DNA of 64,000 bases from Brachionus manjavacas (lineage: Eukaryota; Rotifera; Eurotatoria; Ploima; Brachionidae), in the NCBI GenBank assembly GCA_019054805.1, contig JAHQIY010000010.1, positions 3,517,501-3,581,500 of the forward strand, written 5' to 3'. Positions 830 to 41,639 of this stretch are shown here, piece after piece. Each line of letters starts with the position of its first letter. Position 1 is the first letter of the stretch. Under the pieces are notes generated by a model, which saw only the letters and a list, made by a program, of their open reading frames with translations, made no database searches and was not told the origin of the DNA. The translations under genes and the position numbers were made by a program.

Positions 830-860
830 TATTCAATTTAAAATTATTTTTTTAATAAAT

Positions 861-1545: not shown

Positions 1546-1565
1546 AGATCATCTGAAAAAAGCAT

Positions 1566-3765: not shown

Positions 3766-4681
3766 CTACAAAACAAAACAATTGTACAAAACAATGTATA
3801 ATGTACAAAGCAATTGTACATTGTCAATCTAATATAGGATTTGTTTAGATTGTATTACTAAAAATAAACGATGAAATAAAAAAATATTTTATAATTTTTT
3901 TTTAAATATTGATCAAAAATTGGAAAAATTGGTCAACAAAAAAATGATTACAAGAAACATCATAATGTCTATCATAAATTAGCAAAGATTTATGCTTATA
4001 AAATTAAAGACTTTCTGAATTCTAATTTAATTATTATTATTATATTATTTAGTATATATATATATTTTAATTTTTATTATGATATATGTTTCTTTTAAAA
4101 ACATCCTTTATTTCATTATTAAACAAGCACCAAATTTAAGAATTTTAATTGTTTCTCTAGATAACCGCACAAAAATCACAAGAACACAAGCTTTAAATTA
4201 AGTCAAGATGTGAGCTTAGTGCCAAATGTATTTGTAAGCATTTTACATAGGCGTCTTACTACTGAGAAACGTGACAAATATATTTATTACTTATCTTTGT
4301 GCATCCTGAATAGGGAACAGCGAAGTTTTTAGTTTGAATTATAGTTTAATAAAATGATCCATTTCCATAGTATAATTAAGCGTAGACCTCAATATTGTCA
4401 AATGTGAAATGATGCGTATAAGGAACAGGAATCTCAAAAGCGATGACAAATGTCGAATTGAAAGCTAGCTCAAAAATTTCTAAAACAACGGATCAAAGTG
4501 ATCTTGGAGTAATTTTAGTGATTTACATGAAATAGACTCTAAAAATGAGTATTTCAGCTGTTAGAGTAAAGGAATTTTCATTTGACCATCCCGTGGCAAA
4601 GAATTAATCAAATAGATTAAACGCTTTTTTTGGAAAATAATTTTGATCATTAAATATTTTTAAGTTTATTTAAATTCAAAT
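3766..4681 (-). other. 3' flank of the intact protease gene, with truncated hairpin
   Basis: This is the minus-strand counterpart of the sequence after every exon 2 copy. It holds an AATAAA poly(A) signal (complement of 4665-4670). Unlike the plus-strand copies it lacks the roughly 470-base GGACCG-rich and integrase-like segment: the AT-rich flank joins directly to the hairpin region near 3830, and the 19-bp hairpin arm is cut to 7 bp. Confidence 0.7.
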
Positions 4682-7600
4682 TTAAAAATAATAAATTAAT
4701 AAAATAAAACCATTTGTCAAAAAAGAATGAATAAGAAAAGAACTGCTATTTGATTCAGAATTTGATTCAGAATTTGATGATCCAATGTTTTCTAATATCC
4801 AATTTTTATAAAAACTTGTTCTAGTATAAACACCGCCATCACCACAACCATTTCCCCAACTAGTAATTCCTGCTAAGAACCATTTATTGTTGGATTTTAC
4901 AACCAATGGACCTCCTGAATCGCCTTGACAAGTATCCTTATTCTGACCTTTTTCACCTGCACATAAAGCAATTTGTGTCTCTACTATTGAATATTTGTCC
5001 TCGCATCTTGAATTGCTTAAAACAGGCATCTCAACTTCCAAAAGAAATCTAGTAGGAGTTCCAGAAAATTGAAGACTACCCCAACCGGTGGCCCAACTGC
5101 TCTCATCAGCAAAATTTTGACTTTGATCTGGAATACAAATAGGCAAAATTTGATCAGTGTAACTCAAAGGCATCTGAGAAAATTTAAAATTTTAAACGAA
5201 TTTTCAAAGTTAATTTAAAAGAGCAACTTCTTTTAATCTTTTTTTTGGCTGTATTTTTTTCAAAAATTTTATTATAGTTTAAAAAAAATATCGTGTGATA
5301 ATAAAAATTTTAATTTTTTTTTAAATTTTTGTCTTTTAAAAAAATTATTTATTACTTGAGTAAATTTTTAATTAATAAATTTGAGCTAAAACATGATTGT
5401 AAACTGCACCGCTTTAAATTTTAAAATTGTCCTCAACCAAATAAATAGTACCGTAAACTCTTGTTTACTAACCCGGGGTACAAGTATGGTTTTAGCTATT
5501 GCCCCACCACCATAATATAAACTAGAAGCTCTGGGTTTTTCAAAAAAAGTTTAATTATAACCCCGGGATTTTAATTTAAAAAACTTTTAAATACTTGTAT
5601 GAAGTTAAGCTGAATTTCATCATAGCCCCAGTGTGTATTATAAAAATTTTTTTTATAGTCTCATGAGCTTAAAATTTTAAAAAAATTGCACACCCGTGAT
5701 CATTATTTCATCATTCTTGAACGGTATTATTTTTGCATATGCTTAAGACTTTAAAACAGATCATTTGTAAAAAGTGTGAACACACCAAAAATTAGAATAA
5801 AAAGAACTTCTTTATATTTTTTTTTATTTTTCTCTTACAAATATATATGATGCACAAGATGTAGTGATGTGGTTTTGGTTCAGGCGAAGAAATGATTATT
5901 GACGATGATGATAATGTTGATAATGATGATGATGATGATAATGACAATGATGATTATTAAGATAAAGATGAGTCGGAAATAGAAATAAATTTAAAAATTG
6001 TTTTCATTTAATTTTTCAATTTGTAAGCTCACCAAAAATTAATCAATTATTTTAGTACTTTTTTCTATTTTTTCTGTGAAGAATCGAATTTTTTCAAAAA
6101 CTATGAATTTTTCATTATGAGCCCATTTAAAAAATAAGCATTTTATATTATAAGCCCATTTAAATTATTAAATAACTTTTTTTACCCCGGGTTTCTAATT
6201 TTTTCAATCTTAAAATTCCTATACTAGAAATTTACTTTTTAAATTACAACCTTTTAAATATCTTTTAGCTTGTTCAAATTTCAAATCAACTCTAACCATT
6301 CTATTTTAAGAAATAAAAAAATTAAAGAAACTTTTTAGTTAAAAGTCAACAACGGCTCAAAGAAAAAATTCAATTTTAAATCGAAATAATATTCAAAATT
6401 TGAAATGATTATATTTTTTATAGTCTTAATCATGCAAATTGCTGTTTAAATGTTTTATATTTGAATATAATTTCTTTTTTGATTTTCGAGTAATCCAGAT
6501 ACACAGATCGTCTGGGATTTAATAATAAACAAGGGTAAAACTTGTCACATTACTTTTACCAGAGCTGGTCTCAGAAATAACTATCAAAAAAATACAAACT
6601 GAATCTGAAGATAGAAAATGAGGAATTCCCTCTAGATATACATCCATTATTTCTCGGAATTAGATTAGATCCGAAACTAAACTATATAATCACTTTGAAG
6701 ACATTGAAAAAAGCAATTGTCAAAAAAATCAATTTAATCCGAAAAAAAAAAGTTATAAATAGAGCGCTTCTTTAAAAATCAAAAAATAAGGTTTTTTTTT
6801 TTTTTTAAATAAAGGGACACTTAATCTCTTCAAGTAACAAAAATTCCTTTAAATTTCAATCATAGGGCTGAAAGAAGGCTTTAGCCAGTCTGAGGTTCCC
6901 TGGGGAAATCCCCATAATTATATTTTAAATAAAATTGATTTGAAATTTGTTAAAATTCTATCTATTTTATTAAGTTTTATTATTCGAGTCTAAAAAGAGA
7001 AATTTTTTAATAATAATAAATATTAAAAATTTTATATGTCTCCTTTTTGAATTCTCATTAGGAAGAGTGTAGACCTGCCATGTGAGTAAACCACATGACT
7101 TATTAGATTTTTAAGAATTAAATGAAATTGCGAATTTGAGATTTTAGCTTAAGAATTTTATCGTAACTTAATCACGCATGCGTTCTCTGAATGATTAATT
7201 CATTCAAACATTTTAAAGCGTTCCTTTCTTGAGCCAAACATTGTCACTATAAAAAATAGAAATTATTCACATATTTTGTGAATACTTCAATAAACAATTT
7301 TAACAACAAGGTAACTGGTTACAAGAGTTGTTGTTCATAGTGGTCTTAGAAGTCTCCCCAAGAAAACCTTCCAAATCTTAATGCAACCCCGTTAATGCAT
7401 ACTCGAAGCCTGTTCGACTCCTGCTCAAACATTCAAAAGTTTGAAGCAAATTTGAATTGGGAAAATCGAAATTTTTTGTTTGAATAATAATTTAATTATT
7501 TGCGATTTTTAATCAATTTTAACCTGATGAAAAGACTGTGTCGAATTCTACATTCTTGAAGTTATATAAACTTATTTCAATCGGTCCCTATTATTCCTAA

Positions 7601-8210
7601 GAATTTGGAGTGGACATATTTTCTTACCTGAATAAATTTCAAAATCTCAAACTGTAAAAGTTTTGAAAATAAAATTAAATTATTGACTTACACTTAAATT
7701 CATCAATGCAATATCATTAACATAATTTCCATTAATGTAATTTGGGTGAATTATTATCTTATTGATTCTTCTTTCTGTGGAATATGACTCTGGATTTTCT
7801 CTATCATGTAATCCAAACCTCAAGATAAAATTAGATTCAATATTTTTATCGTCAACACAATGTGCAGCTGTAAGAACCCACTGGGAGTTAATCAAAGATC
7901 CTCCGCAAACAAATCGCCCATTATACTCAAGAGCTGTTTGCCAGCCCCAATCTTCAGGATCTGCCACTTGACCACCAACAATTTTATTCAGATCCCTACC
8001 TCTTATTTCATCAATCCGTCTTCCACATTCAGTTGGGTTAATTTCATCTGAATTCCTGGGCATTGATTTTTTTTCATTGGCAATTTTAAAAAATGGGCGC
8101 CCTGGGTTCAACTCAGTTTTTCTCTGAAGATTAGCCAAAGAATTTACATTCTTGTTGACTAAAAATACAACAAACAGGATCTTAATAATTCTTTTTTGAA
8201 TATGTAGCAT
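4682..8210 (-). CDS. Trypsin-like serine protease, complete two-exon copy
   Basis: Exon 1 is 8210-7692 (173 codons, phase 0), with donor GTAAGT. The 2518-base intron ends in TTTTCTCAG. Exon 2 is 5173-4682. The 336-residue product has a hydrophobic N-terminal signal (about 1-24), a pro-region with Cys62, cleavage expected at Lys76|Ile77 (N-K-I-V-G-G), His117 in T-A-A-H-C, Asp166 in N-D-I-A-L and Ser259 in G-D-S-G-G-P. Asp253 at the S1 base predicts cleavage after Arg/Lys. Cys pairs expected from the family are 62-186 (keeps both chains joined), 102-118, 230-244 and 255-283; the pair equivalent to 136-201 is absent on both sides. After the domain, a Ser/Asn/Glu spacer leads to a hydrophobic end (about 319-336), suggesting membrane or GPI attachment. 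This is the only array copy with both exons intact and adjacent. Confidence 0.92.
5470..6193. repeat. Intronic element bounded by inverted AACCCGGGGTA
   Basis: AACCCGGGGTA at 5470-5480 and its exact reverse complement at 6183-6193 bracket 724 bases. A third CCCCGGG lies inside near 5564. In such AT-rich DNA an 11-bp GC-rich inverted pair stands out and could be the ends of a small MITE. I see no convincing target duplication. Counterparts are in the plus-strand introns, for example near 20188-20910 and 24893-25615. Confidence 0.4.
5901..5960. repeat. GAT/ATC microsatellite in the protease intron
   Basis: Imperfect GAT/AAT trinucleotide repeat. Copies lie near 16010, 20435, 25140 and 40140 (as ATC on the plus strand). 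It produces spurious Ser-rich short frames. Confidence 0.8.
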
Positions 8211-8240
8211 TTTGATTATAAAAAGTGTTAAATCATTGCT

Positions 8241-8248
8241 TTTTTATA
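8241..8248 (-). promoter_or_regulatory. Putative TATA box of the intact protease gene
   Basis: TATAAAAA on the minus strand, ending about 31 bases upstream of the ATG at 8210. The same box and spacing are kept before exon 1 at 13756, 31186 and 35269. It would place the transcription start only a few bases before the ATG. Position-based inference. Confidence 0.4.
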
Positions 8249-8629
8249 CAAGATAATTGATGTAATTTTTTCTGCTTCACTAAATGCATTTGAAATTAAG
8301 TTTTAATTATATGAATTAAGAATGAAATACACATAACTAAAAAAGTTTTATTTTTTGCAAAGTTGTTGTTAAAGTCACGTTTTTTTATTTTTTAAGAGAA
8401 GAAAAAATTCTATTGCATATTTGAACACAACTAACATAAATACTTTTGATTTTAAAATTTGACTTAAGTATAGTATCCTGCTTGGAAAAATAAATCCAAA
8501 CCCTGAATATCAACAAAAAATCCTTATTTGAATTATTTAAAATCTTTAAAATTAAGAGATACAATGTTAGTTCAGTGAAAGATAAAATTAAGGCAAAATC
8601 ACTATCTCAATATTTTCTGTTGGATGTCA

Positions 8630-9866
8630 TAAACCTGATATCCTTCTAGTTATTTTCCGGACTTGTTACAAACCAATAAACAGAAAGTCTGTTATGGAAA
8701 GAGACCATATTAGGAAAGAAGTACAGTCTATGCTTAAAAATGATTTAATTGAAGAATCAAGCTCACCATGGTCGGCACCAGTTGTCTCGATGCCCAAAAA
8801 AGACGGCTCAAAACGATAATACAGTAATGTAGATGACACATTACTGTATTATCTAACAAATGGTCCTTTTCAAAATGAATTGTCAAAAAAGCAATTTAAA
8901 AGAATTGAAAAAGCAGCAACTCAGTTTTTTTACGTAAGAGAAAATGATGAAATTTTTTATATGGGACGAGATAATATCTCACGCTTGGCACCGAAACCTA
9001 GTAACAGAATCGGTATTATTTTGAAAGCACATGTTTTGGGTAACTTCAAGTTCGAATCAACAACCAAACGAATTAAAGAGGAATACTTTTCGAAAAACAT
9101 GGATAAAGACATTGAAGCTTTGGTACAAAGTTGCGAAGTGTGCAAGAGAAATAATTTAGCTCCCGCAAAGGAACATCCTGTGAAAGCAATTCCCATTAAA
9201 GGTGTCTTTGATAGAATCGGAATACACTAGGTATTCGGTCTACCGGTAACAGAGAAAGGTTTCACTGGAATAATGGTCATTAACGTATGCTTAACCATGT
9301 TTCCCTTTGCCGAACCTATTAAAGGTAAATCAGCTTAAGAAATTGCTAACATTCCATGGAAATTCATATGTACATTTGGACCACCAAAGTGTTTATGTCT
9401 GATCAAGGTATAGAATTTAATAAACAAATTGTTGAAAATCTTATTATACGAGTCGGATATGAGCATGTCATTACATCCGCATATCACCCCAGCACTAATA
9501 GCTAAGTTGAGCGCTTGAACAAAGAAAAAGTAAGTTGTTTAAGAAAATATTCTGAGCAAAATTCAGGAGATTAGTCTAAATGGTTTCTATTCGTATTTCT
9601 AGCATATCGTACAAGAATACACTCAGCAACAAAGTTCTCCCCATTTGAACTAATGTTCGGTAGAGAAGTGAATGGATACAACGACTGGAGTTCCATCGAT
9701 CCCGATTTTAAACACGATGCAGTAGATAAACGTGTTAAGCAAATAAAAGATCTGATCGAGATAAATATCCGACAGCACTCCAGAACATACATAAAGCAGA
9801 ATGCTCCAAATTTAGGCTCAAAATAATAAAAATATCTACTGGCTCAAAGGTCTGGATCCGAGTTAA
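8630..9866 (+). pseudogene. Gypsy-type retrotransposon remnant (RT start fused to integrase)
   Basis: Plus strand. From about 8640 to 8814 it reads the start of a Ty3/gypsy reverse transcriptase (S-S-P-W-S-A-P-V-V then K-K-D-G-S). After a 39-base palindrome at 8815-8853 the sequence resumes beyond the RNase H region with the integrase H2C2 zinc-binding module (H...H...C-E-V-C, about 9030-9150) and the integrase core, including a D-Q-G-x-E-F region and Y-H-P-S-T-N. Several in-frame stops and shifts interrupt the core. Most of RT and RNase H is missing, so it is dead. It ends at 9866, fused to protease exon 2 sequence. The element lies directly upstream of the protease promoter, in the opposite orientation to that gene. 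Confidence 0.8.
8815..8853. repeat. Perfect 16-bp inverted repeat at the gypsy deletion junction
   Basis: Arms 8815-8830 and 8838-8853 are exact reverse complements with a 7-base spacer. They sit precisely where RT sequence jumps to post-RNase H sequence. Same structure at 13114-13152, 30543-30581 and 34625-34663. Confidence 0.85.
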
Positions 9867-9867
9867 A

Positions 9868-10157
9868 TTGCTTTATGTGCAGGTGAAAAAGGTCAGAATA
9901 AGGATACTTGTCAAGGCGATTCAGGAGGTCCATTGGTTGTAAAATCCAACAATAAATGGTTCTTAGCAGGAATTACTAGTTGGGGAAATGGTTGTGGTGA
10001 TGGCGGTGTTTATACTAGAACAAGTTTTTATAAAAATTGGATATTAGAAAACATTGGATCATCAAATTCTGAATCAAATTCTGAATCATTTAGCAGTTCT
10101 TTTCTTATTCATTCTTTTTTGACAAATGGTTTTATTTTATTAATTTATTATTTTTAA
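9868..10157 (+). pseudogene. Protease exon 2, 5'-truncated copy
   Basis: Starts abruptly inside exon 2 just before the A-L-C-A-G motif, where it is fused to gypsy sequence, and runs to the normal stop. It keeps the G-D-S-G-G-P nucleophile region and the hydrophobic tail but lacks the acceptor and the first 67 codons. It shares G-E-K-G and G-D-G-G with the intact minus copy, but its tail reads E-S-F-S, as in the copy at 21204, so it is mosaic. An AATAAA follows the stop. Confidence 0.8.
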
Positions 10158-11049
10158 ATTTGAATTTAAATAAACTTAAAAATATTTAATGATCAAAATT
10201 ATTTTCCAAAAAAGCGTTTAATCTATTTGATTAATTCTTTGCCACGGGATGGTCAAATGAAAATTCCTTTACTCTAACAGCTGAAATACTCATTTTTAGA
10301 GTCTATTTCATGTAAATCACTAAAATTACTCCAAGATCACTTTGATCCGTTGTTTTAGAAATTTTTGAGCTAGCTTTCAATTCGACATTTGTCATCGCTT
10401 TTGAGATTCCTGTTCCTTATACGCATCATTTCACATTTGACAATATTGAGGTCTACGCTTAATTATACTATGGAAATGGATCATTTTATTAAACTATAAT
10501 TCAAACTAAAAACTTCGCTGTTCCCTATTCAGGATGCACAAAGATAAGTAATAAATATATTTGTCACGTTTCTCAGTAGTAAGACGCCTATGTAAAATGC
10601 TTACAAATACATTTGGCACTAAGCTCACATCTTGACTTAATTTTAAGCTTGTGTTCTTGTGATTTTTGTGCGGTTATCTAGAGAAACAATCTTTAATTTG
10701 GTGCTTGTTTAATAATGAAATAAAGGATGTTTTTAAAAGAAACATATATCATAATAAAAATTAAAATATATATATATACTAAATAATATAATAATAATAA
10801 TTAAATTAGAATTCAGAAAGTCTTTAATTTTATAAGCATAAATCTTTGCTAATTTATGATAGACATTATGATGTTTCTTGTAATCATTTTTTTGTTGACC
10901 AATTTTTCCAATTTTTGATCAATATTTAAAAAAAAATTATAAAATAATTTTTTTATTTCATCGTTTATTTTTAGTAATACAATCTAAACAAATCCTATAT
11001 TAGATTGACTTGACATTAATTTAAAGTTTAATTATGCCTAATTTTCAGA
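10158..11049 (+). other. Duplicated 3' flank of the protease gene
   Basis: Non-coding flank found after every exon 2. It contains an AT dinucleotide stretch near 10766 and an AT-rich segment ending in the start of the GGACCG-rich repeat. No gene seen. Confidence 0.6.
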
Positions 11050-11190
11050 AACAGTGACCGTGTCCGCGTGAGCCTGGCAAACTTTAAGCGCCCGGTCAGC
11101 TTGGGGGTCTATTTCTTGGACCGCCAAATTAAACGGTCTATAATAAACGGGCGGCCCAAAAAACCGGGCAATTTTTTGGTTGGTTTTTTT
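11050..11190. repeat. GC-rich GGACCG/CGGTCC repeat family member
   Basis: A short GC-rich island (GGACCGCC, CCGGTCAGC, GGGCGGCCC) in AT-rich DNA. Copies lie near 16660-16790, 22600-22725 and 27305-27430. A diverged copy in the opposite orientation lies just beyond the array's right end at 41640-41830. Its absence from the minus unit suggests it arrived by insertion. Class unknown, perhaps one end of a DNA transposon. Confidence 0.6.
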
Positions 11191-11225
11191 ATAAAAAATT
11201 ATAAGCGCTGCTAATACTTAACTTG

Positions 11226-11482
11226 GCATAAGGGGTAGTGTACGAGAAAATCAAGAGAAACAAGCCGAAACTATGCGCTGTAGAAGTGCAAAATTTTCCT
11301 GAAGCCGAGATTGGCGATTTTGTTGCATTACTAATACCTGATGTTGATAAACTAAGAGATGTCAACTTAAAAATAAGAATTAGAACGGACAAAGTTGTTA
11401 AAAGCATTCATCAAGCAGTCAACGAGCTTTCAATTGGTGGCGGACAGGGTATGATCAAGTGTAATTGTACAAAACAATGTAC
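11226..11482 (+). pseudogene. Integrase C-terminal fragment (KRBA2-like)
   Basis: The frame contains E-I-G-D-F-V-A-L-L-I-P-D-V-D, then G-G-G-Q-G-M-I-K-C-N-C. This order (a short beta-strand module with P-x-V-D, a linker, then a G-Q-G-x-x-K-C-N-C Cys-rich tail) matches what I know of integrase-derived KRBA2-like proteins. It is cut at the Cys-rich tail by the TGTACA hairpin. This copy is in frame. The copies at 16850, 22786 and 27493 carry a two-base insertion (AAATATCTTCC versus AAATTTTCC) that shifts the frame. Confidence 0.5.
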
Positions 11483-11518
11483 AATTGCTTTGTACATTAT
11501 ACATTGTTTTGTACAATT
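11463..11518. repeat. Perfect hairpin with 19-bp TGTACA-rich arms
   Basis: Arms 11463-11481 and 11500-11518 are exact reverse complements with an 18-base loop. Identical hairpins occur at 17072-17127, 18306-18361, 23009-23064, 27717-27772, 28943-28998, 33025-33080, 37105-37160 and 38990-39045. The minus unit has only a 7-bp version near 3800-3835. Confidence 0.9.
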
Positions 11519-11559
11519 GTTTTGTTTTGTAGAATTGTCAAACTTGTTGTACAAGTGTA

Positions 11560-11660
11560 TTCCGATTCTATCAAAGACACCTTTAATGGGAATTGCTTTC
11601 GCAGGATGTTTCTTTTCGGGAGCTAAATTATTTCTCTTGCACACTTCGCAACTTTACAAA
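11560..11660 (-). pseudogene. Short gypsy integrase piece beside the hairpin
   Basis: On the minus strand this reads the junction of zinc-binding module and integrase core (C-K-R-N-N-L-A-P, then I-P-I-K-G-V-F-D-R-I-G), as at 9150-9220. It is isolated from the rest of the element and repeated after each hairpin in the array, except at 17200 and 27840, where it is cut short by a jump into the intron. Confidence 0.75.
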
Positions 11661-11675
11661 AAGAAGTAAAAAAAA

Positions 11676-11861
11676 ATGGAACTAACTTCGTACAAAGCAT
11701 CCGCTGAAAGCTCCGTAAAAAATACATTAAGAAGAAACCTGGAAATATTGTTAACAATTACTGGAAAAGTTCTCAAATGTTTTCGAAATTGTGTTCACAA
11801 TGGAAGCAATAATGCTGGAGAAGGAAGAAGTGATTACAAAATGAATGGTTCTTCCATTTGA
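11676..11861 (+). CDS. Small ORF of 61 residues, repeated in the array
   Basis: An ATG frame of 61 codons, basic and Ser/Asn-rich (M-E-L-T-S-Y-K, T-L-R-R-N-L). Further copies at 29156-29341, 33238-33423, 37318-37503 and 39203-39388 stay open, with one replacement (C to Y in V-L-K-C-F). I do not recognise it. It lies between the short gypsy piece and the gypsy 3' end and may just be retroelement sequence. Its importance is that its first 30 codons are fused in frame to protease exon 1 at 18519 and 23222. Confidence 0.3.
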   Translation: MELTSYKASAESSVKNTLRRNLEILLTITGKVLKCFRNCVHNGSNNAGEGRSDYKMNGSSI

Positions 11862-11967
11862 TTAAAAAATTATATTTTCTTGTTTTTATTTAATCGATGC
11901 TTTTATATTTTTTCAACTTCAAAAATAGCTTCCTTTCCCTCGTTAGGAGAAGGCGACTTATCTAATT

Positions 11968-13345
11968 TTAATCTCTGGAGTGAAAATGTGTCGGACAGCT
12001 TCTGCTTGAAGTCATCTTGACAATGTGATTTAAATTTTTTGTTTGACCTAGAACAGTGAACGGGCCACGATATTTTGGGTGTAATTTTCGATTCAGTCCC
12101 ATGACTCGGATCCAGACCTTTGAGCCAGTAGATATTTTTATTATTTTGAGCCTAAATTTGGAGCATTCTGCTTTATGTATGTTCTGGAGTGCTGTCGGAT
12201 ATTTATCTCGATCAGATCTTTTATTTGCTTAACACGTTTATCTACTGCATCGTGTTTAAAATCGGGATCGATGGAACTCCAGTCGTTGTATCCATTCACT
12301 TCTCTACCGAACATTAGTTCAAATGGGGAGAACTTTGTTGCTGAGTGTATTCTTGTACGATATGCTAGAAATACGAATAGAAACCATTTAGACTAATCTC
12401 CTGAATTTTGCTCAGAATATTTTCTTAAACAACTTACTTTTTCTTTGTTCAAGCGCTCAACTTAGCTATTAGTGCTGGGGTGATATGCGGATGTAATGAC
12501 ATGCTCATATCCGACTCGTAAAATAAGATTTTCAACAATTTGTTTATTAAATTCTATACCTTGATCAGACATAAACACTTTGGTGGTCCAAATGTACATA
12601 TGAATTTCCATGGAATGTTAGCAATTTCTTAAGCTGATTTACCTTTAATAGGTTCGGCAAAGGGAAACATGGTTAAGCATACGTTAATGACCATTATTCC
12701 AGTGAAACCTTTCTCTGTTACCGGTAGACCGAATACCTAGTGTATTCCGATTCTATCAAAGACACCTTTAATGGGAATTGCTTTCACAGGATGTTCCTTT
12801 GCGGGAGCTAAATTATTTCTCTTGCACACTTCGCAACTTTGTACCAAAGCTTCAATGTCTTTATCCATGTTTTTCGAAAAGTATTCCTCTTTAATTCGTT
12901 TGGTTGTTGATTCGAACTTGAAGTTACCCAAAACATGTGCTTTCAAAATAATACCGATTCTGTTACTAGGTTTCGGTGCCAAGCGTGAGATATTATCTCG
13001 TCCCATATAAAAAATTTCATCATTTTCTCTTACGTAAAAAAACTGAGTTGCTGCTTTTTCAATTCTTTTAAATTGCTTTTTTGACAATTCATTTTGAAAA
13101 GGACCATTTGTTAGATAATACAGTAATGTGTCATCTACATTACTGTATTATCGTTTTGAGCCGTCTTTTTGGGCATCGAGACAACTGGTGCCGACCATGG
13201 TGAGCTTGATTCTTCAATTAAATCATTTTTAAGCATAGACTGTACTTCTTTCCTAATATGGTCTCTTTCCATAACAGACTTTCTGTTTATTGGTGTGTAA
13301 CAAGTCCGGAAAATAACTAGAAGGATATCAGGTTTATGACATCCA
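11968..13345 (-). pseudogene. Gypsy remnant, minus-strand copy upstream of exon 1
   Basis: Near-identical inverted counterpart of 8630-9866, extending further at the 3' end: it includes the integrase C-terminal GPY/F-type module (K-Y-R-G-P-F-T-V) ending at the stop at about 11968. It has the same RT-to-integrase deletion with palindrome (13114-13152) and the same in-frame stops. It lies head-to-head with exon 1 at 13756. Confidence 0.8.
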
Positions 13346-13717
13346 ACAGAAAATATTGAGATAGTGATTTTGCCTTAATTTTATCTTTCACTGAACTAAC
13401 ATTGTATCTCTTAATTTTAAAGATTTTAAATAATTCAAATAAGGATTTTTTGTTGATATTCAGGGTTTGGATTTATTTTTCCAAGCAGGATACTATACTT
13501 AAGTCAAATTTTAAAATCAAAAGTATTTATGTTAGTTGTGTTCAAATATGCAATAGAATTTTTTCTTCTCTTAAAAAATAAAAAAACGTGACTTTAACAA
13601 CAACTTTGCAAAAAATAAAACTTTTTTAGTTATGTGTATTTCATTCTTAATTCATATAATTAAAACTTAATTTCAAATGCATTTAGTGAAGCAGAAAAAA
13701 TTACATCAATTATCTTG

Positions 13718-13725
13718 TATAAAAA
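13718..13725 (+). promoter_or_regulatory. Putative TATA box before orphan exon 1
   Basis: TATAAAAA 31-38 bases before the ATG at 13756, identical in sequence and spacing to the intact gene's promoter, so this orphan exon could still be transcribed. Inference. Confidence 0.4.
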
Positions 13726-13755
13726 AGCAATGATTTAACACTTTTTATAATCAAA

Positions 13756-14274
13756 ATGCTACATATTCAAAAAAGAATTATTAAGATCCTGTTTGTTGTA
13801 TTTTTAGTCAACAAGAATGTAAATTCTTTGGCTAATCTTCAGAGAAAAACTGAGTTGAACCCAGGGCGCCCATTTTTTAAAATTGCCAATGAAAAAAAAT
13901 CAATGCCCAGGAATTCAGATGAAATTAACCCAACTGAATGTGGAAGACGGATTGATGAAATAAGAGGTAGGGATCTGAATAAAATTGTTGGTGGTCAAGT
14001 GGCAGATCCTGAAGATTGGGGCTGGCAAACAGCTCTTGAGTATAATGGGCGATTTGTTTGCGGAGGATCTTTGATTAACTCCCAGTGGGTTCTTACAGCT
14101 GCACATTGTGTTGACGATAAAAATATTGAATCTAATTTTATCTTGAGGTTTGGATTACATGATAGAGAAAATCCAGAGTCATATTCCACAGAAAGAAGAA
14201 TCAATAAGATAATAATTCACCCAAATTACATTAATGGAAATTATGTTAATGATATTGCATTGATGAATTTAAGT
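13756..14274 (+). CDS. Protease exon 1, intact but orphaned copy
   Basis: Encodes the same 173 residues as exon 1 of the intact gene: signal peptide, pro-region Cys, N-K-I-V-G-G cleavage site, T-A-A-H-C and N-D-I-A-L. A perfect GTAAGT donor follows. The intron is broken at about 16367, where it jumps into the 3'-flank/GGACCG repeat, so its own exon 2 is gone. The nearest acceptor and exon 2 lie at 21204, about 6.9 kb away, past another splice donor at 18684. A full protease mRNA is possible in principle, but only by long-range splicing. Confidence 0.7.
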
Positions 14275-29341: not shown

Positions 29342-29447
29342 TTAAAAAATTATATTTTCTTGTTTTTATTTAATCGATGCTTTAATATTTTTTCAACTTC
29401 AAAAATAGCTTCCTTTCCCTCGTTAGGAGAAGGCTACTTATCTAATT

Positions 29448-30775: not shown

Positions 30776-31185
30776 ACAGAAAATATTGAGATAGTGATTT
30801 TGCCTTAATTTTATCTTTCACTGAACTAACATTGTATCTCTTAATTTTAAAGATTTTAAATAATTCAAATAAGGATTTTTTGTTGATATTCAGGGTTTGC
30901 ATTTATTTTTCGAAGCAGGATACTATACTTAAGTCAAATTTTAAAATCAAAAGTATTTATGTTAGTTGTGTTCAAATATGCAATAGAATTTTTCTTCTCT
31001 TAAAAAATAAAAAAACGTGACTTTAACAACAACTTTGCAAAAAATAAAACTTTTTTAGTTATGTGTATTTCATTCTTAATTCATATAATTAAAACTTAAT
31101 TTCAAATGCATTTAGTGAAGCAGAAAAAAATTACATCAATTATCTTGTATAAAAAAGCAATGATTTAACACTTTTTATAATCAAA

Positions 31186-31702
31186 ATGCTACATATTCAA
31201 AAAAGAATTATTAAGATCCTGTTTGTTGTATTTTTAGTCAACAAGAATGTAAATTCTTTGGCTAATCTTCAGAGAAAAACTGAGTTGAACCCAGGGCGCC
31301 CATTTTTTAAAATTGCCAATGAAAAAATCAATGCCCAGGAATTCAGATGAAATTAACCCAACTGAATGTGGAAGACGGATTGATGAAATAAGAGGTAGGG
31401 ATCTGAATAAAATTGTTGGTGGTCAAGTGGCAGATCCTGAAGATTGGGGCTGGCAAACAGCTCTTGAGTATAATGGGCGATTTGTTTGCGGAGGATCTTT
31501 GATTAACTCCCAGTGGGTTCTTACAGCTGCACATTGTGTTGACGATAAAAATATTGAATCTAATTTTATCTTGAGGTTTGGATTACATGATAGAGAAAAT
31601 CCAGAGTCATATTCCACAGAAAGAAGAATCAATAAGATAATAATTCACCCAAATTACATTAATGGAAATTATGATAATGATATTGCATTGATGAATTTAA
31701 GT
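31186..31702 (+). pseudogene. Protease exon 1, frameshifted and without splice donor
   Basis: ATG at 31186. Two As are lost from the A-run at about 31322, shifting the frame inside the pro-region. A downstream ATG at 31313 would re-enter the protease frame but lacks the signal peptide. The donor GTGTAAGT has become GTGAGGT, so the frame reads on into the intron. Otherwise it carries the N-K-I-V-G-G site, catalytic His and Asp, and the Y-D-N-D variant. Confidence 0.75.
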
Positions 31703-33237
31703 GAGGTCAATAATTTAATTTTATTTTCAAAACTTTTACAGTTTGAGATTTTGAAATTTATTCAGGTAAGAAAATATGTCCACTCCAAATTCTTAGGAAT
31801 AATAGGGACCGATTGAAATAAGTTTATATAACTTCAAGAATGTAGAATTCGACACAGTCTTTTCATCAGGTTAAAATTGATTAAAAATCGCAAATAATTA
31901 AATTATTATTCAAACAAAAAATTTCGATTTTCCCAATTCAAATTTGCTTCAAACTTTTGAATGTTTGAGCAGGAGTCGAACAGGCTTCGAGTATGCATTA
32001 ACGGGGTTGCATTAAGATTTGGAAGGTTTTTCTTGGGGAGACTTCTAAGACCACTATGAACAACAACTCTTGTAACCAGTTACCTTGTTGTTAAACTTGT
32101 TTATTGAAGTATTCACAAAATATGTGAATAATTTCTATTTTTTATAGTGACAATGTTTGGCTCAAGAAAGGAACGCTTTAAAATGTTTGAATGAATTAAT
32201 CATTCAGAGAACGCATGCGTGATTAAGTTACGATAAAATTCTTAAGCTAAAATCTCAAATTCGCAATTTCATTTAATTCTTAAAAATCTAATAAGTCATG
32301 TGGTTTACTCACATGGCAGGTCTACACTCTTCCTAATGAGAATTCAAAAAGGAGACATATAAAATTTTTAATATTTTTATTATTAAAAAATTTCTCTTTT
32401 TAGACTCGAATAATAAAACTTAATAAAATAGATAGAATTTTAACAAATTTCAAATCAATTTTATTTAAAATATAATTATGGGGATTTCCCAGGGAACCTC
32501 AGACTGGCTAAAGCCTTCTTTCAGCCCTATGATTGAAATTTAAAGGAATTTTTGTTACTTGAAGAGATTAAGTGTCCGTTTATTTAAAAAAAAAGCGAAG
32601 CGCTCTATTTATAACTTTTTTTTTTCGGATTAAATTGATTTTTTTGACAATTGCTTTTTTTCAATGTCTTCAAAGTGATTATATAGTTTAGTTTCGGATC
32701 TAATCTAATTCCGAGAAATAATGGATGTATATCTAGAGGGAATTCCTCATTTTCTATCTTCAGATTCAGTTTGTATTTTTTTTTGATAGTTATTTCTGAG
32801 ACCAGCTCTGGTAAAAGTAATGTGACAAGTTTTACCCTTATTTATTATTAAATCCCAGACGATCTGTGTATCTGGATTACTCGAATATCAAAAAAAGAAA
32901 TTATATTCAAATATAAAACATTTAAACATCAATTTGCATGATTAAGACTATAAAAAATATAAAAAGCATTCATCAAGCAGTCAACGAGCTTTCAATTGGT
33001 GGCGGACAGGGTATGATCAAGTGTAATTGTACAAAACAATGTACAATTGCTTTGTACATTATACATTGTTTTGTACAATTGTTTTGTTTTGTAGAATTTT
33101 CAAACTTGTTGTACAAGTGTATTCCGATTCTATCAAAGACACCTTTAATGGGAATTGCTTTCGCAGGATGTTTCTTTTCGGGAGCTAAATTATTTCTCTT
33201 GCACACTTCGCAACTTTACAAAAAGAAGTAAAAAAAA
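31703..33237 (+). other. Array segment: deleted intron, then hairpin block
   Basis: Intron part with a short deletion near 32590 (A-run joined to GCGAAGCGCTC), the recurrent junction at 32961/32962, the hairpin (33025-33080) and the short gypsy piece. It closes a 4.08-kb unit. Confidence 0.7.
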
Positions 33238-33423
33238 ATGGAACTAACTTCGTACAAAGCATCCGCTGAAAGCTCCGTAAAAAATACATTAAGAAGAAAC
33301 CTGGAAATATTGTTAACAATTACTGGAAAAGTTCTCAAATATTTTCGAAATTGTGTTCACAATGGAAGCAATAATGCTGGAGAAGGAAGAAGTGATTACA
33401 AAATGAATGGTTCTTCCATTTGA
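33238..33423 (+). CDS. Small ORF, 61 residues (copy)
   Basis: Identical in translation to the copy at 29156. Confidence 0.25.
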   Translation: MELTSYKASAESSVKNTLRRNLEILLTITGKVLKYFRNCVHNGSNNAGEGRSDYKMNGSSI

Positions 33424-33529
33424 TTAAAAAATTATATTTTCTTGTTTTTATTTAATCGATGCTTTAATATTTTTTCAACTTCAAAAATAGCTTCCTTTCC
33501 CTCGTTAGGAGAAGGCTACTTATCTAATT

Positions 33530-34855
33530 TTAATCTCTGGAGTGAAAATGTGTCGGACAGCTTCTGCTTGAAGACATCTTGACAATGTGATTTAAATTTT
33601 TTGTTTGACCTAGAACAGTGAACGGGCCACGATATTTTGGGTGTAATTTTCGATTCAGTCCCATGACTCGGATCCAGACCTTTGAGCCAGTAGATATTTT
33701 TATTATTTTGAGCCTAAATTTGGAGCATTCTGCTTTATGTATGTTCTGGAGTGCTGTCGGATATTTATCTCGATCAGATCTTTTATTTGCTTAACACGTT
33801 TATCTACTGCATCGTGTTTAAAATCGGGATCGATGGAACTCCAGTCGTTGTATCCATTCACTTCTCTACCGAACATTAGTTCAAATGGGGAGAACTTTGT
33901 TGCTGAGTGTATTCTTGTACGATATGCTAGAAATACGAATGGAAACCATTTAGACTAATCTCCTGAATTTTGCTCAGAATATTTTCTTAAACAACTTACT
34001 TTTTCTTTGTTCAAGCGCTCAACTTAGCTATTAGTGCTGGGGTGATATGCGGATGTAATGACATGCTCATATCCGACTCGTATAATAAGATTTTCAACAA
34101 TTTGTTTATTAAATTCTATACCTTGATCAGACATAAACACTTTGGTGGTCCAAATGTACATATGAATTTCCATGGAATGTTAGCAATTTCTTAAGCTGAT
34201 TTACCTTTAATAGGTTCGGCAAAGGGAAACATGGTTAAGCATACGTTAATGACCATTATTCCAGTGAAGCCTTTCTCTGTTACCGGTAGACCGAATATTG
34301 TAGACCGCAGGATGTTCCTTTGCGGGAGCTAAATTATTTCTCTTACACACTTCGCAACTTTGTACCAAAGCTTCAATGTCTTTTTTCGAAAAGTATTCCT
34401 CTTTAATTCGTTTGGTTGTTGATTCGAACTTGAAGTTACCCAAAACATGTGCTATCAAAATAATACCGATTCTGTTACTAGGTTTCGGTGCCAAGCGTGA
34501 GATATTATCTCGTCCCATATAAAAAATTTCATCATTTTCTCTTACGTAAAAAAACTGAGTTGCTGCTTTTTCAATTCTTTTAAATTGCTTTTTTGACAAT
34601 TCATTTTGAAAAGGACCATTTGTTAGATAATACAGTAATGTGTCATCTACATTACTGTATTATCGTTTTGAGCCGTCTTTTTGGGCATCGAGACAACTGG
34701 TGCCGACCATGGTGAGCTTGATTCTTCAATTAAATCATTTTTAAGCATAGACTGTACTTCTTTCCTAATATGGTCTCTTTCCATAACAGACTTTCTGTTT
34801 ATTGGTTTGTAACAAGTCCGGAAAATAACTAGAAGGATATCAGGTTTATGACATC
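33530..34855 (-). pseudogene. Gypsy remnant (copy)
   Basis: Same internal deletions as the copy at 29448-30775; palindrome at 34625-34663. It belongs to the second 4.08-kb unit. Confidence 0.75.
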
Positions 34856-35268
34856 CAACAGAAAATATTGAGATAGTGATTTTGCCTTAATTTTATCTTT
34901 CACTGAACTAACATTGTATCTCTTAATTTTAAAGATTTTAAATAATTCAAATAAGGATTTTTTGTTGATATTCAGGGTTTGCATTTATTTTTCGAAGCAG
35001 GATACTATACTTAAGTCAAATTTTAAAATCAAAAGTATTTATGTTAGTTGTGTTCAAATATGCAATAGAATTTTTTCTTCTCTTAAAAAATAAAAAAACG
35101 TGACTTTAACAACAACTTTGCAAAAAATAAAACTTTTTTAGTTATGTGTATTTCATTCTTAATTCATATAATTAAAACTTAATTTCAAATGCATTTAGTG
35201 AAGCAGAAAAAAATTACATCAATTATCTTGTATAAAAAAGCAATGATTTAACACTTTTTATAATCAAA

Positions 35269-35787
35269 ATGCTACATATTCAAAAAAGAATTATTAAGAT
35301 CCTGTTTGTTGTATTTTTAGTCAACAAGAATGTAAATTCTTTGGCTAATCTTCAGAGAAAAACTGAGTTGAACCCAGGGCGCCCATTTTTTAAAATTGCC
35401 AATGAAAAAAAATCAATGCCCAGGAATTCAGATGAAATTAACCCAACTGAATGTGGAAGACGGATTGATGAAATAAGAGGTAGGGATCTGAATAAAATTG
35501 TTGGTGGTCAAGTGGCAGATCCTGAAGATTGGGGCTGGCAAACAGCTCTTGAGTATAATGGGCGATTTGTTTGCGGAGGATCTTTGATTAACTCCCAGTG
35601 GGTTCTTACAGCTGCACATTGTGTTGACGATAAAAATATTGAATCTAATTTTATCTTGAGGTTTGGATTACATGATAGAGAAAATCCAGAGTCATATTCC
35701 ACAGAAAGAAGAATCAATAAGATAATAATTCACCCAAATTACATTAATGGAAATTATGATAATGATATTGCATTGATGAATTTAAGT
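35269..35787 (+). pseudogene. Protease exon 1, coding intact but splice donor lost
   Basis: All 173 codons are intact, with the Y-D-N-D variant, but the donor reads GTGAGGTC instead of GTGTAAGTC. The frame then runs 37 codons into intron sequence, so an unspliced product would be a 210-residue protein ending after the catalytic Asp, with no Ser. A cryptic GTGAGG donor two bases upstream would give the wrong phase for exon 2. Confidence 0.75.
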
Positions 35788-37317
35788 GAGGTCAATAATT
35801 TAATTTTATTTTCAAAACTTTTACAGTTTGAGATTTTGAAATTTATTCAGGTAAGAAAATATGTCCACTCCAAATTCTTAGGAATAATAGGGACCGATTG
35901 AAATAAGTTTATATAACTTCAAGAATGTAGAATTCGACACAGTCTTTTCATCAGGTTAAAATTGATTAAAAATCGCAAATAATTAAATTATTATTCAAAC
36001 AAAAAATTTCGATTTTCCCAATTCAAATTTGCTTCAAACTTTTGAATGTTTGAGCAGGAGTCGAACAGGCTTCGAGTATGCATTAACGGGGTTGCATTAA
36101 GATTTGGAAGGTTTTTCTTGGGGAGACTTCTAAGACCACTATGAACAACAACTCTTGTAACCAGTTACCTTGTTGTTAAACTTGTTTATTGAAGTATTCA
36201 CAAAATATGTGAATAATTTCTATTTTTTATAGTGACAATGTTTGGCTCAAGAAAGGAACGCTTTAAAATGTTTGAATGAATTAATCATTCAGAGAACGCA
36301 TGCGTGATTAAGTTACGATAAAATTCTTAAGCTAAAATCTCAAATTCGCAATTTCATTTAATTCTTAAAAATCTAATAAGTCATGTGGTTTACTCACATG
36401 GCAGGTCTACACTCTTCCTAATGAGAATTCAAAAGGAGACATATAAAATTTTTAATATTTTTATTATTAAAAAATTTCTCTTTTTAGACTCGAATAATAA
36501 AACTTAATAAAATAGATAGAATTTTAACAAATTTCAAATCAATTTTATTTAAAATATAATTATGGGGATTTCCCCAGGGAACCTCAGACTGGCTAAAGCC
36601 TTCTTTCAGCCCTATGATTGAAATTTAAAGGAATTTTTGTTACTTGAAGAGATTAAGTGTCCGTTTATTTAAAAAAAAAGCGAAGCGCTCTACCTAAAAC
36701 TTTTTTTTTTCAGATTAAATTGATTTTTTTGACAATTGCTTTTTTTCAATGTCTTCAAAGTGATTATATAGTTTAGTTTCGGATCTAATCTAATTCCGAG
36801 AAATAATGGATGTATATCTAGAGGAATTCCTCATTTTCTATCTTCAGATTCAGTTTGTATTTTTTTGATAGTTATTTCTGAGACCAGCTCTGGTAAAAGT
36901 AATGTGACAAGTTTTACCCTTATTTATTATTAAATCCCAGACGATCTGTGTATCTGGATTACTCGAATATCAAAAAGAAATTATATTCAAATATAAAACA
37001 TTTAAACATCAATTTGCATGATTAAGACTATAAAAAATATAAAAAGCATTCATCAAGCAGTCAACGAGCTTTCAATTGGTGGCGGACAGGGTATGATCAA
37101 GTGTAATTGTACAAAACAATGTACAATTGCTTTGTACATTATACATTGTTTTGTACAATTGTTTTGTTTTGTAGAATTTTCAAACTTGTTGTACAAGTGT
37201 ATTCCGATTCTATCAAAGACACCTTTAATGGGAATTGCTTTCGCAGGATGTTTCTTTTCGGGAGCTAAATTATTTCTCTTGCACACTTCGCAACTTTACA
37301 AAAAGAAGTAAAAAAAA
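35788..37317 (+). other. Array segment: deleted intron, then hairpin block
   Basis: As 31703-33237, with the same GCGAAGCGCTC deletion near 36680, junction at 37041/37042 and hairpin at 37105-37160. Confidence 0.7.
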
Positions 37318-37503
37318 ATGGAACTAACTTCGTACAAAGCATCCGCTGAAAGCTCCGTAAAAAATACATTAAGAAGAAACCTGGAAATATTGTTAACAAT
37401 TACTGGAAAAGTTCTCAAATATTTTCGAAATTGTGTTCACAATGGAAGCAATAATGCTGGAGAAGGAAGAAGTGATTACAAAATGAATGGTTCTTCCATT
37501 TGA
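37318..37503 (+). CDS. Small ORF, 61 residues (copy)
   Basis: Same translation as at 29156. Followed by about 170 bases of the gypsy 3' end, which then jumps into the intron near 37682, removing the gypsy body and exon 1. Confidence 0.25.
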   Translation: MELTSYKASAESSVKNTLRRNLEILLTITGKVLKYFRNCVHNGSNNAGEGRSDYKMNGSSI

Positions 37504-39202
37504 TTAAAAAATTATATTTTCTTGTTTTTATTTAATCGATGCTTTTATATTTTTTCAACTTCAAAAATAGCTTCCTTTCCCTCGTTAGGAGAAGGCTACT
37601 TATCTAATTTTAATCTCTGGAGTGAAAATGTGTCGGACAGCTTCTGCTTGAAGACATCTTGACAATGTGATTTAAATTTTTGATTAGATTTTGAAATTTA
37701 TTCAGGTAAGAAAATATGTCCACTCCAAATTCTTAGGAATAATAGGGACCGATTGAAATAAGTTTATATAACTTCAAGAATGTAGAATTCGACACAGTCT
37801 TTTCATCAGGTTAAAATTGATTAAAAATCGCAAATAATTAAATTATTATTCAAACAAAAAATTTCGATTTTCCCAATTCAAATTTGCTTCAAACTTTTGA
37901 ATGTTTGAGCAGGAGTCGAACAGGCTTCGAGTATGCATTAACGGGGTTGCATTAAGATTTGGAAGGTTTTTCTTGGGGAGACTTCTAAGACCACTATGAA
38001 CAACAACTCTTGTAACCAGTTACCTTGTTGTTAAACTTGTTTATTGAAGTATTCACAAAATATGTGAATAATTTCTATTTTTTATAGTGACAATGTTTGG
38101 CTCAAGAAAGGAACGCTTTAAAATGTTTGAATGAATTAATCATTCAGAGAACGCATGCGTGATTAAGTTACGATAAAATTCTTAAGCTAAAATCTCAAAT
38201 TCGCAATTTCATTTAATTCTTAAAAATCTAATAAGTCATGTGGTTTACTCACATGGCAGGTCTACACTCTTCCTAATGAGAATTCAAAAAGGAGACATAT
38301 AAAATTTTTAATATTTTTATTATTAAAAAATTTCTCTTTTTAGACTCGAATAATAAAACTTAATAAAATAGATAGAATTTTAACAAATTTCAAATCAATT
38401 TTATTTAAAATATAATTATGGGGATTTCCCCAGGGAACCTCAGACTGGCTAAAGCCTTCTTTCAGCCCTATGATTGAAATTTAAAGGAATTTTTGTTACT
38501 TGAAGAGATTAAGTGTCCGTTTATTTAAAAAAAAAAAAAAAACCTTATTTTTTGATTTTTAAAGAAGCGCTCTATTTATAACTTTTTTTTTTCGGATTAA
38601 ATTGATTTTTTTGACAATTGCTTTTTTTCAATGTCTTCAAAGTGATTATATAGTTTAGTTTCGGATCTAATCTAATTCCGAGAAATAATGGATGTATATC
38701 TAGAGGGAATTCCTCATTTTCTATCTTCAGATTCAGTTTGTATTTTTTTGATAGTTATTTCTGAGACCAGCTCTGGTAAAAGTAATGTGACAAGTTTTAC
38801 CCTTATTTATTATTAAATCCCAGACGATCTGTGTATCTGGATTACTCGAATATCAAAAAAAGAAATTATATTCAAATATAAAACATTTAAACATCAATTT
38901 GCATGATTAAGACTATAAAAAATATAAAAAGCATTCATCAAGCAGTCAACGAGCTTTCAATTGGTGGCGGACAGGGTATGATCAAGTGTAATTGTACAAA
39001 ACAATGTACAATTGCTTTGTACATTATACATTGTTTTGTACAATTGTTTTGTTTTGTAGAATTTTCAAACTTGTTGTACAAGTGTATTCCGATTCTATCA
39101 AAGACACCTTTAATGGGAATTGCTTTCGCAGGATGTTTCTTTTCGGGAGCTAAATTATTTCTCTTGCACACTTCGCAACTTTACAAAAAGAAGTAAAAAA
39201 AA
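37504..39202 (+). other. Array segment: unit with exon 1 deleted
   Basis: Gypsy 3' stub to about 37682, the first half of the intron, junction at 38926/38927, hairpin (38990-39045) and short gypsy piece. This unit is only about 1.9 kb long. Confidence 0.7.
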
Positions 39203-39388
39203 ATGGAACTAACTTCGTACAAAGCATCCGCTGAAAGCTCCGTAAAAAATACATTAAGAAGAAACCTGGAAATATTGTTAACAATTACTGGAAAAGTTCT
39301 CAAATATTTTCGAAATTGTGTTCACAATGGAAGCAATAATGCTGGAGAAGGAAGAAGTGATTACAAAATGAATGGTTCTTCCATTTGA
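39203..39388 (+). CDS. Small ORF, 61 residues (last copy)
   Basis: Same translation as at 29156. A gypsy stub follows and jumps at about 39467 into the second half of the intron, so no exon 1 precedes the last exon 2. Confidence 0.25.
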   Translation: MELTSYKASAESSVKNTLRRNLEILLTITGKVLKYFRNCVHNGSNNAGEGRSDYKMNGSSI

Positions 39389-40910
39389 TTAAAAAATTAT
39401 ATTTTCTTGTTTTTATTTAATCGATGCTTTTATATTTTTTCAACTTCAAAAATAGCTTCCTTTCCTTATTTTCTATCTTCAGATTCAGTTTGTATTTTTT
39501 TTTGATAGTTATTTCTGAGACCAGCTCTGGTAAAAGTAATGTGACAAGTTTTACCCTTGTTTATTATTAAATCCCAGACGATCTGTGTATCTGGATTACT
39601 CGAAAATCAAAAAAAGAAATTATATTCAAATATAAAACATTTAAACAGCAATTTGCATGATTAAGACTATAAAAAATATAATCATTTCAAATTTTGAATA
39701 TTATTTCGATTTAAAATTGAATTTTTCTTTGAGCCGTTGTTGACTTTTAACTAAAAAGTTTCTTTAATTTTTTTATTTCTTAAAATAGAATGGTTAGAGT
39801 TGATTTGAAATTTGAACAAGCTAAAAGATATTTAAAAGGTTGTAATTTAAAAAGTAAATTTCTAGTATAGGAATTTTAAGATTGAAAAAATTAGAAACCC
39901 GGGGTAAAAAAAGTTATTTAATAATTTAAATGGGCTTATAATATAAAATGCTTATTTTTTAAATGGGCTCATAATGAAAAATTCATAGTTTTTGAAAAAA
40001 ATTCGATTCTTCACAGAAAAAATAGAAAAAAGTACTAAAATAATTGATTAATTTTTGGTGAGCTTACAAATTGAAAAATTAAATGAAAACAATTTTTAAA
40101 TTTATTTCTATTTCCGACTCATCTTTATCTTAATAATCATCATTGTCATTATCATCATCATCATCATTATCAACATTATCATCATCGTCAATAATCATTT
40201 CTTCGCCTGAACCAAAACCACATCACTACATCTTGTGCATCATATATATTTGTAAGAGAAAAATAAAAAAAAATATAAAGAAGTTCTTTTTATTCTAATT
40301 TTTGGTGTGTTCACACTTTTTACAAATGATCTGTTTTAAAGTCTTAAGCATATGCAAAAATAATACCGTTCAAGAATGATGAAATAATGATCACGGGTGT
40401 GCAATTTTTTAAAATTTTAAGCTCATGAGACTATAAAAAAATTTTTATAATACACACTGGGGCTATGATGAAATTCAGCTTAACTTCATACATGTATTTA
40501 AAAGTTTTTTAAATTAAAATCCCGGGGTTATAATTAAACTTTTTTGAAAAACCCAGAGCTTCTAGTTTATATTATGGTGGTGGGGCAATAGCTAAAACCA
40601 TACTTGTACCCCGGGTTAGTAAACAAGAGTTTACGGTACTATTTATTTGGTTGAGGACAATTTTAAAATTTAAAGCGGTGCAGTTTACAATCATGTTTTA
40701 GCTCAAATTTATTAATTAAAAATTTACTCAAGTAATAAATAATTTTTAATAGACATAAACTTTAAAAAAAATTAAAATTTTTATTATCACACGATATTTT
40801 TTTAAACTATAAAAAAATTTTTGAAAAAAATACAGCCAAAAAAAAGATTAAAAGAAGTTGCTCTTTTAAATTAACTTTGAAAATTCGTTTAAAATTTTAA
40901 ATTTTCTCAG

Positions 40911-41402
40911 ATGCCTTTGAGTTACACTGATCAAATTTTGCCTATTTGTATTCCAGATCAAAGTCAAAATTTTGCTGATGAGAGCAGTTGGGCCACCGGT
41001 TGGGGTAGTCTTCAATTTTCTGGAACTCCTACTAGATTTCTTTTGGAAGTTGAGATGCCTGTTTTAAGCAATTCAAGATGCGAGGACAAATATTCAATAG
41101 TAGAGACACAAATTGCTTTATGTGCAGGTGAAAAAGATCAGAATAAGGATACTTGTCAAGGCGATTCAGGAGGTCCATTGGTTGTAAAATCCAACAATAA
41201 ATGGTTCTTAGCAGGAATTACTAGTTGGGGAAATGGTTGTGGTGATGCCGGTGTTTATACTAGAACAAGTTTTTATAAAAATTGGATATTAGAAAACATT
41301 GGATCATCAAATTCTGAATCAAATTCTGAATCAAATAGCAGTTCTTTTCTTATTCATTCTTTTTTGACAAATGGTTTTATTTTATTAATTTATTATTTTT
41401 AA
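40911..41402 (+). CDS. Protease exon 2, intact but orphaned copy
   Basis: Complete exon 2 with TTTTCTCAG acceptor, 163 codons, the S1 Asp, G-D-S-G-G-P and hydrophobic tail. It is a mosaic: E at position 231 like the minus-strand gene, but D at 249 and A before the S1-wall Gly like the plus copies. No donor-competent exon 1 lies within 17 kb on this strand. The complete second half of the intron (39467-40910) precedes it. AATAAA follows the stop. The array ends about 80 bases later. Confidence 0.8.
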   Translation: MPLSYTDQILPICIPDQSQNFADESSWATGWGSLQFSGTPTRFLLEVEMPVLSNSRCEDKYSIVETQIALCAGEKDQNKDTCQGDSGGPLVVKSNNKWFLAGITSWGNGCGDAGVYTRTSFYKNWILENIGSSNSESNSESNSSSFLIHSFLTNGFILLIYYF

Positions 41403-41639
41403 ATTTGAATTTAAATAAACTTTAAAATATTTAATGATCAAAATTATTTTCCAAAAAAAGCGTTTAATCTATTTGATTAAATCTTTGGCGGTAAGCCACT
41501 TAAATTGAAATTTTTATGAAAAAATTTTTTTAATTTTTTTAAGAAAAAATGATTAAAATGATCAAAAAAAACTAATAAAAAATTTCTTTATTTATTTTAA
41601 AAAATATTTTTAGATTTTTTTTTAATTTTTCAAAATTTT

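Follow-up and report, generated by a model that had tools for sequence, protein, structure and literature searches.

How did eleven units derived from one protease gene, of which a single unit is a complete gene and is inverted relative to the others, come to lie side by side in the genome of the rotifer Brachionus manjavacas? We studied this question in a window of 64,000 nucleotides (contig C10 of the assembly, JAHQIY010000010.1, positions 3517501-3581500), and compared the window with the whole assembly of 114.17 Mb in 61 contigs. Three published mlh3 oligonucleotides of B. manjavacas (PMC10395877) have exact counterparts in the assembly. The 20-nt guide target has one exact match, the only other match listed for it has 3 mismatches, and its reversed control pattern matched twice within 3 mismatches; the two primers match without a mismatch to either side of the target and together span about 120 bp. 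The genome is therefore of this rotifer or of a very close relative. Positions given without a contig name are those of the window. We found that nearly the whole stretch from 3757 to 41487 can be laid on one unit of 7,134 bp, which contains an S1A trypsin gene, an integrase scrap of a retroelement, and other repeat debris. We consider it probable, at about two chances in three, that a recent tandem array of direct 7.1-kb units decayed by end joining, that altered units were copied by unequal exchange, and that the first unit was inverted.

The preliminary description of this DNA had derived about 37.7 kb from one ancestral unit, built from a single protease gene and retroelement scraps. These claims were borne out, and a recent amplification is supported. 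In the segment map, 37,706 of the 37,731 bp between 3757 and 41487 (summed) were assigned to segments of one 7,134-bp axis (x), on which all units fit when it is read as a cycle. The axis was composed of V (11400-12103, x 1-704), U (the reverse complement of 3824-9863, x 705-6744), and W (11010-11399, x 6745-7134). The array copies are about 96-100% identical over hundreds to thousands of bases, which is evidently beyond chance; outside the array, no match above 90% identity exceeds about 400 bp among the matches listed in the genome comparisons. The eleven units (L, inverted, and M1 to M10, direct) were defined by the segment map, and their exons by an additional exon check, as follows.

3757-3823, minus strand: piece of the V repeat, 67 bp (x142-76), at the left edge of the array
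3824-9863, minus strand: unit L (x6744-705), inverted; the sole unit with both trypsin exons complete
9865-11399, plus strand: unit M1 (x5594-7134); exon 2 without its 5' part, frame open
11400-17008, plus strand: unit M2 (x1-4976, 6494-7134); exon 1 only, from 13756
17009-18243, plus strand: unit M3 (x1-200, 3129-4159); no exon
18244-22945, plus strand: unit M4 (x2-364, 2800-7134); tail of exon 1, and exon 2 (21204-21695)
22946-27653, plus strand: unit M5, with the layout of M4; exon 2 at 25911-26402
27654-28880, plus strand: unit M6, with the layout of M3; no exon
28881-32962, plus strand: unit M7 (x2-1336, 1388-4159); exon 1 frameshifted, GT donor lost
32963-37042, plus strand: unit M8, with the layout of M7; exon 1 open (from 35269), GT donor lost
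37043-38927, plus strand: unit M9 (x2-640, 2921-4159); no exon
38928-41487, plus strand: unit M10 (x2-535, 3943-5971); exon 2 only (40911-41402), followed by the right flank

The inverted arms described previously were recovered as 5592-9863 and 12104-16365 (99.2% identity in a 4,279-bp alignment). The reported unit spacings were also found: 4,703 bp (18243 to 22946), 4,082 and 4,080 bp (28880, 32962, and 37042), and 1,885 bp (37042 to 38927). A claimed super-duplication of 10.6 kb was rejected, as only about 2.25 kb (16364-18609 and 27008-29246) recurs at that distance. The window gave no Rfam match at the gathering score and no tRNA.

The joints between segments carry most of the history. 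As had been noted, the same junctions recur at five and at two places: x4159>1 occurs at 18243, 28880, 32962, 37042, and 38927, and 200>3129 (17208 and 27853), 364>2800 (18606 and 23309), and 1336>1388 (30215 and 34297) occur twice each. The joints x640>2921, 535>3943, 4976>6494, and 6744>76 occur once, as does the inversion joint between 705 (minus) and 5594 (plus). The five carriers of x4159>1 have variants in common at x3201, 3270, and 4084 (the first is an indel in a T run); none of the other units covering the region, four or five in number, has these variants. Because its carriers share the three columns, this joint evidently has a single origin and was afterwards copied or homogenised. 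The five carriers differ in their 5' parts; therefore, later changes followed. The earlier proposal that deletions preceded duplication is thus supported in one part, as the three shared columns indicate that each recurrent joint is older than its copies, and needs correction in the other, as x4159>1 is not necessarily a deletion: a loss of 2,975 bp between neighbouring units would produce it, and so would a tandem duplication of x1-4159.

The transition x7134>1 runs unbroken at contigs C1, C2, and C14 with 96-97% identity. On account of this contiguity we discarded x=1 as the end of a repeat or a point of circularisation, and likewise rejected the apparent unit boundaries at 11400, 17009, 22946, and 27654 as joints. 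C1 and C14 hold about 118 bp that are missing from the array; by inspection of C1, an 8-bp repeat flanks this sequence.

Microhomology was tested at the five clean joints; the joints labelled E and F (the only ones with fillers of several bases), 6744>76, the inversion, and the two flank joints were left out. The lengths were 1 bp at 4159>1, 1 bp at 200>3129, 3 bp at 364>2800, 4 bp at 535>3943, and 2 bp at 4976>6494, where the random mean is 0.87 (P = 0.020 for a sum of at least 11; P = 0.030 for at least 1 bp at all five). The filler of joint E reads as an 8-bp templated insert.

30216-30225, plus strand: filler of 10 bp at joint E, of which 8 bp recur starting 12 bp upstream; an identical filler lies at 34298-34307

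A polymerase domain like that of polymerase theta (Pol theta) is encoded on contig C6; for each of two pieces, the first seven matches are Pol theta chains. We did not take two other family-A polymerases, on C21 and C45, as the animal enzyme, as their domains are of bacterial type and, for C21, the best solved relatives also point that way. Both are uninterrupted (C21:596503-597666, with 5'-3' exonuclease domains, and C45:10802-11929, with a 3'-5' exonuclease domain), and these two contigs may be bacterial. In B. manjavacas itself, deletions at 2-bp microhomology are reported after CRISPR cutting (PMC10395877).

Pairwise substitution divergence between units ranges from 0.08% to 1.6%, and therefore more than one event took part. 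M3 and M6 differ at 1 of 1,227 aligned bases and M7 and M8 at 5 of 4,065, and the pairs M3/M6, M4/M5, and M7/M8 have further variants in common, in agreement with their shared joints. Informative sites were also compared two by two, and 12 of the 325 pairs show all four haplotypes, which departs from a simple tree and suggests that units exchanged sequence. Several steps rather than one are indicated, because variants are linked to a joint, 5' changes came later, and haplotypes are mixed. In the history that we favour, a 7.1-kb unit consisting of the trypsin gene and transposable-element debris would have been duplicated into a direct tandem array; units would then have been shortened by end joining, probably of the microhomology-mediated (MMEJ) or Pol theta type; unequal homologous exchange, the presumed copier, would have spread the altered units; and the first unit would have been inverted through two breaks. 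The order of the later steps is the one that seems most plausible to us.

The inversion itself was examined at its joint.

9864, no strand: inversion joint, x705 (minus) to x5594 (plus), by inspection; 0 bp of microhomology and one extra base

When 3757-9863 is flipped back on the map, it reads x705-6744 and 76-142, and is followed by 5594-7134, so that a single direct tandem array results. The V piece at 3757-3823 then precedes M1, much as V pieces open other direct units. As the flip restores an all-direct array, two breaks suffice and a fold-back is not needed; the all-direct orientation before the inversion would follow from this reading of the map. The preliminary description had likened the layout to an active amplification locus, for instance of the fold-back or template-switch type. 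The layout does fit a fold-back, with an arm, a 2.24-kb loop (9865-12103) that runs on into the M2 arm along the axis, and the opposite arm; the arms, however, are not clearly sisters.

A fold-back, or an inverted template switch, that made the pair of L and M1-M2 before or during the build-up of direct copies is in our judgement unlikely, and the comparisons that bear on it go both ways. When all shared blocks are counted, a set that varies with the pair, L is nearest to M2, and in x2800-4159 the substitutions are 4 for L-M2 and 6 for L-M5. The seven private substitutions of M1 and the 13 of M2, against one in L, are also what mutagenic synthesis of M1-M2 might give. In x2800-4976, however, L-M2 and L-M5 are equal at 8 substitutions each (with 9 and 11 indel events; L-M4 has 13 and 7), and in x3943-4976 the counts are 2 substitutions and 6 indel events for L-M10, and 4 and 4 for L-M2. 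When L and M2 are set against M4, M5, and M10, a single column, in an A/T run, distinguishes these two from all the rest. Any extra similarity of the arms to each other, over that to direct copies, thus appears slight at most. The lack of microhomology at the inversion joint also speaks against a fold-back, although some human fold-back joints have insertions in its place (PMC3907307).

A replication catastrophe of the fork stalling and template switching (FoSTeS) or microhomology-mediated break-induced replication (MMBIR) type, making the entire array in one shot, would account for the microhomology, the templated insert, and the mixed orientation. It is hard to reconcile with a divergence between copies that varies more than tenfold, with joints that recur with their own linked variants, and with variants mixed across units, and we regard it as very improbable. 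Slightly less improbable, and still quite unlikely, is an assembly artefact, in which some of the near-identical units (M7/M8, M4/M5, M3/M6) would represent alleles or misjoins. The differences within the pairs M3-M6 and M7-M8 do lie within the allelic range. On the other side, M1, M2, M9, and M10 have private joints and fixed differences separate the units, so that at most a few copies would be false; the window is also without any N.

Several points weigh against the stepwise history of decay and exchange. The P values for microhomology are based on five joints only, and template switching gives similar scars. Among all distances of L the lowest is to M2 (12 of 4,453, 0.27%, compared with 0.33% for L-M5). 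Several of the 12 four-haplotype pairs use the same sites, and recurrent mutation might explain some of them. Private substitutions, counted in gap-free two-state columns only, are uneven: 1 in L, 7 in M1, 13 in M2, 8 in M4, 2 in M5, 1 in M6, 5 in M8, 9 in M10, and none in M3, M7, and M9. A plain array does not predict this, and error-prone copying or consensus errors could be responsible. Lastly, the copy number and order of the units are as given by one assembly.

Two clusters of private substitutions were observed. Within 36039-36826, five of M8 fall in about 130 bp next to a deletion that M7 shares, and within 40497-41109, five of M10 fall within about 65 bp. Error-prone repair or consensus error is suggested for both.

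The gene in the unit is predicted to encode an S1A trypsin-like protease of the digestive type. Its splice sites in unit L were predicted by inspection.

7692-8210, minus strand: trypsin exon 1 of unit L (x2358-2876); N-terminal hydrophobic stretch, activation-site, His, and Asp motifs; GTAAGT donor after the exon
4682-5173, minus strand: trypsin exon 2 of unit L (x5395-5886); GDSGG motif and a Ser/Asn-rich and hydrophobic tail; CAG acceptor ahead of the exon

Both exons match the trypsin domain PF00089 (E = 1e-23 for exon 1 and 6.7e-30 for exon 2), and the best solved relative is enteropeptidase (E = 8.1e-58). The unit L gene has all three motifs TAAHC, NDIAL, and GDSGG, whose residues we take to be the catalytic ones. 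The 2.5-kb intron carries dispersed repeats that are found elsewhere in the genome at about 78-97% identity; related genes apparently have much shorter introns, going by the spacing of hits alone.

Exon 1 is full-length in L, M2, M7, and M8, with an open frame in L, M2, and M8 and an intact donor in L and M2. Full-length, open copies of exon 2 are found in L, M4, M5, and M10, and the copy in M1 is 5'-truncated yet open. The retention of copies for dosage is not favoured, because both exons are present in unit L alone, and the array as a whole would need no function, because just one unit is a complete gene. All five substitution events in exons alter amino acids, which by our reasoning neither shows constraint nor rejects neutrality. 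M2 exon 1 (from 13756, donor intact) lies upstream of the two intact exon-2 copies of M4 and M5, whose acceptors are intact; that it might splice to one of them, so that an exon-shuffled cluster would encode variant proteases, is doubtful. A count of trypsin-domain matches here overstates the gene number, as there is one complete gene in eleven units.

The retroelement remnant lies antisense to and upstream of the trypsin gene, and is evidently a scrap rather than an element.

8820-9230, plus strand: retroelement scrap, integrase zinc-binding domain (PF17921, E = 2e-11)

Its integrase core domain match is weak (E = 0.095), its pol is not intact, with interrupted reading frames, and a profile search of the reverse-transcriptase-like piece gave no Pfam match. 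We presume it to derive from a Ty3/gypsy-type LTR retroelement. Its relatives elsewhere in the genome are about 80-89% identical among the matches listed. On contig C46 (190,610 bp), at least 17 matches to the scrap were observed at 80-82%, 16 of 17 in the same orientation, and a 9.9-kb stretch of that contig is repetitive within itself.

To the right of the array, a palindromic 10-bp minisatellite (TTTACGTAAA type) was observed in two patches that match inverted (51862-51998 and 52688-52860). Open frames at 49653-50324, 53517-54764, and 59429-61252 have weak beta-propeller or WD40-like matches below the family cut-offs.

In the literature on trypsin, gene-family expansion, and tandem duplication in Brachionus and rotifers, this array was not found in the titles or abstract openings listed among open-licence works, which does not prove its absence; the papers listed on segmental duplication and palindromes had no mention of Brachionus and are thus of little weight. 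At this locus, the making and unmaking of a tandem gene array in a monogonont rotifer can be followed base by base, and the scars suggest end joining at microhomology, in a species amenable to CRISPR.

Among known systems, human fold-back inverted duplications resemble the locus in having an arm, a kb-sized spacer, and an inverted arm. In those duplications, 13 of the 18 joints that lacked LINE/SINE homology showed 2-8 bp, and insertions were present at the remaining five (PMC3907307). In contrast, the array joint has no inverted microhomology and its arms are not clearly mutual closest copies. The array joints are also like the scars of Pol theta in Caenorhabditis elegans, for which microhomology as short as 1 bp and templated insertions of a single stretch are reported (PMC8654963): we found excess short microhomology (at five joints) and one clear templated insert, as expected of the Pol theta type. 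They differ in that the array is known from sequence, with multi-base fillers at joints E and F only.

Within the same genome, seven head-to-tail trypsin-like copies occur at C3:519771-526882, with a unit of about 1,016 bp and 99.8-99.9% identity. This array is likewise tandem and of the same protease family, whereas its unit is short and head-to-tail, and no deletion joints were seen in self-comparison. It adjoins a 261-bp minisatellite. Evenly spaced repeat matches at C10:2730840-2761972 (five, about 7.5 kb apart) and at C9:2202326-2252031 (four, 16.4 kb apart) suggest further tandem arrays.

Tandem segmental duplication with unequal exchange is a general process of gene families. The array contains adjacent direct copies of at least 1 kb with at least 90% identity, as such duplications are defined, and it resembles them in its direct multi-kb copies, mostly more than 98% identical, in its mixing of variants, and in its partial genes. 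It differs from them in having one inverted unit and in that sequence-resolved joints cut almost all units. The locus looks ordinary in kind, a case of gene duplication and decay that is unusually legible.

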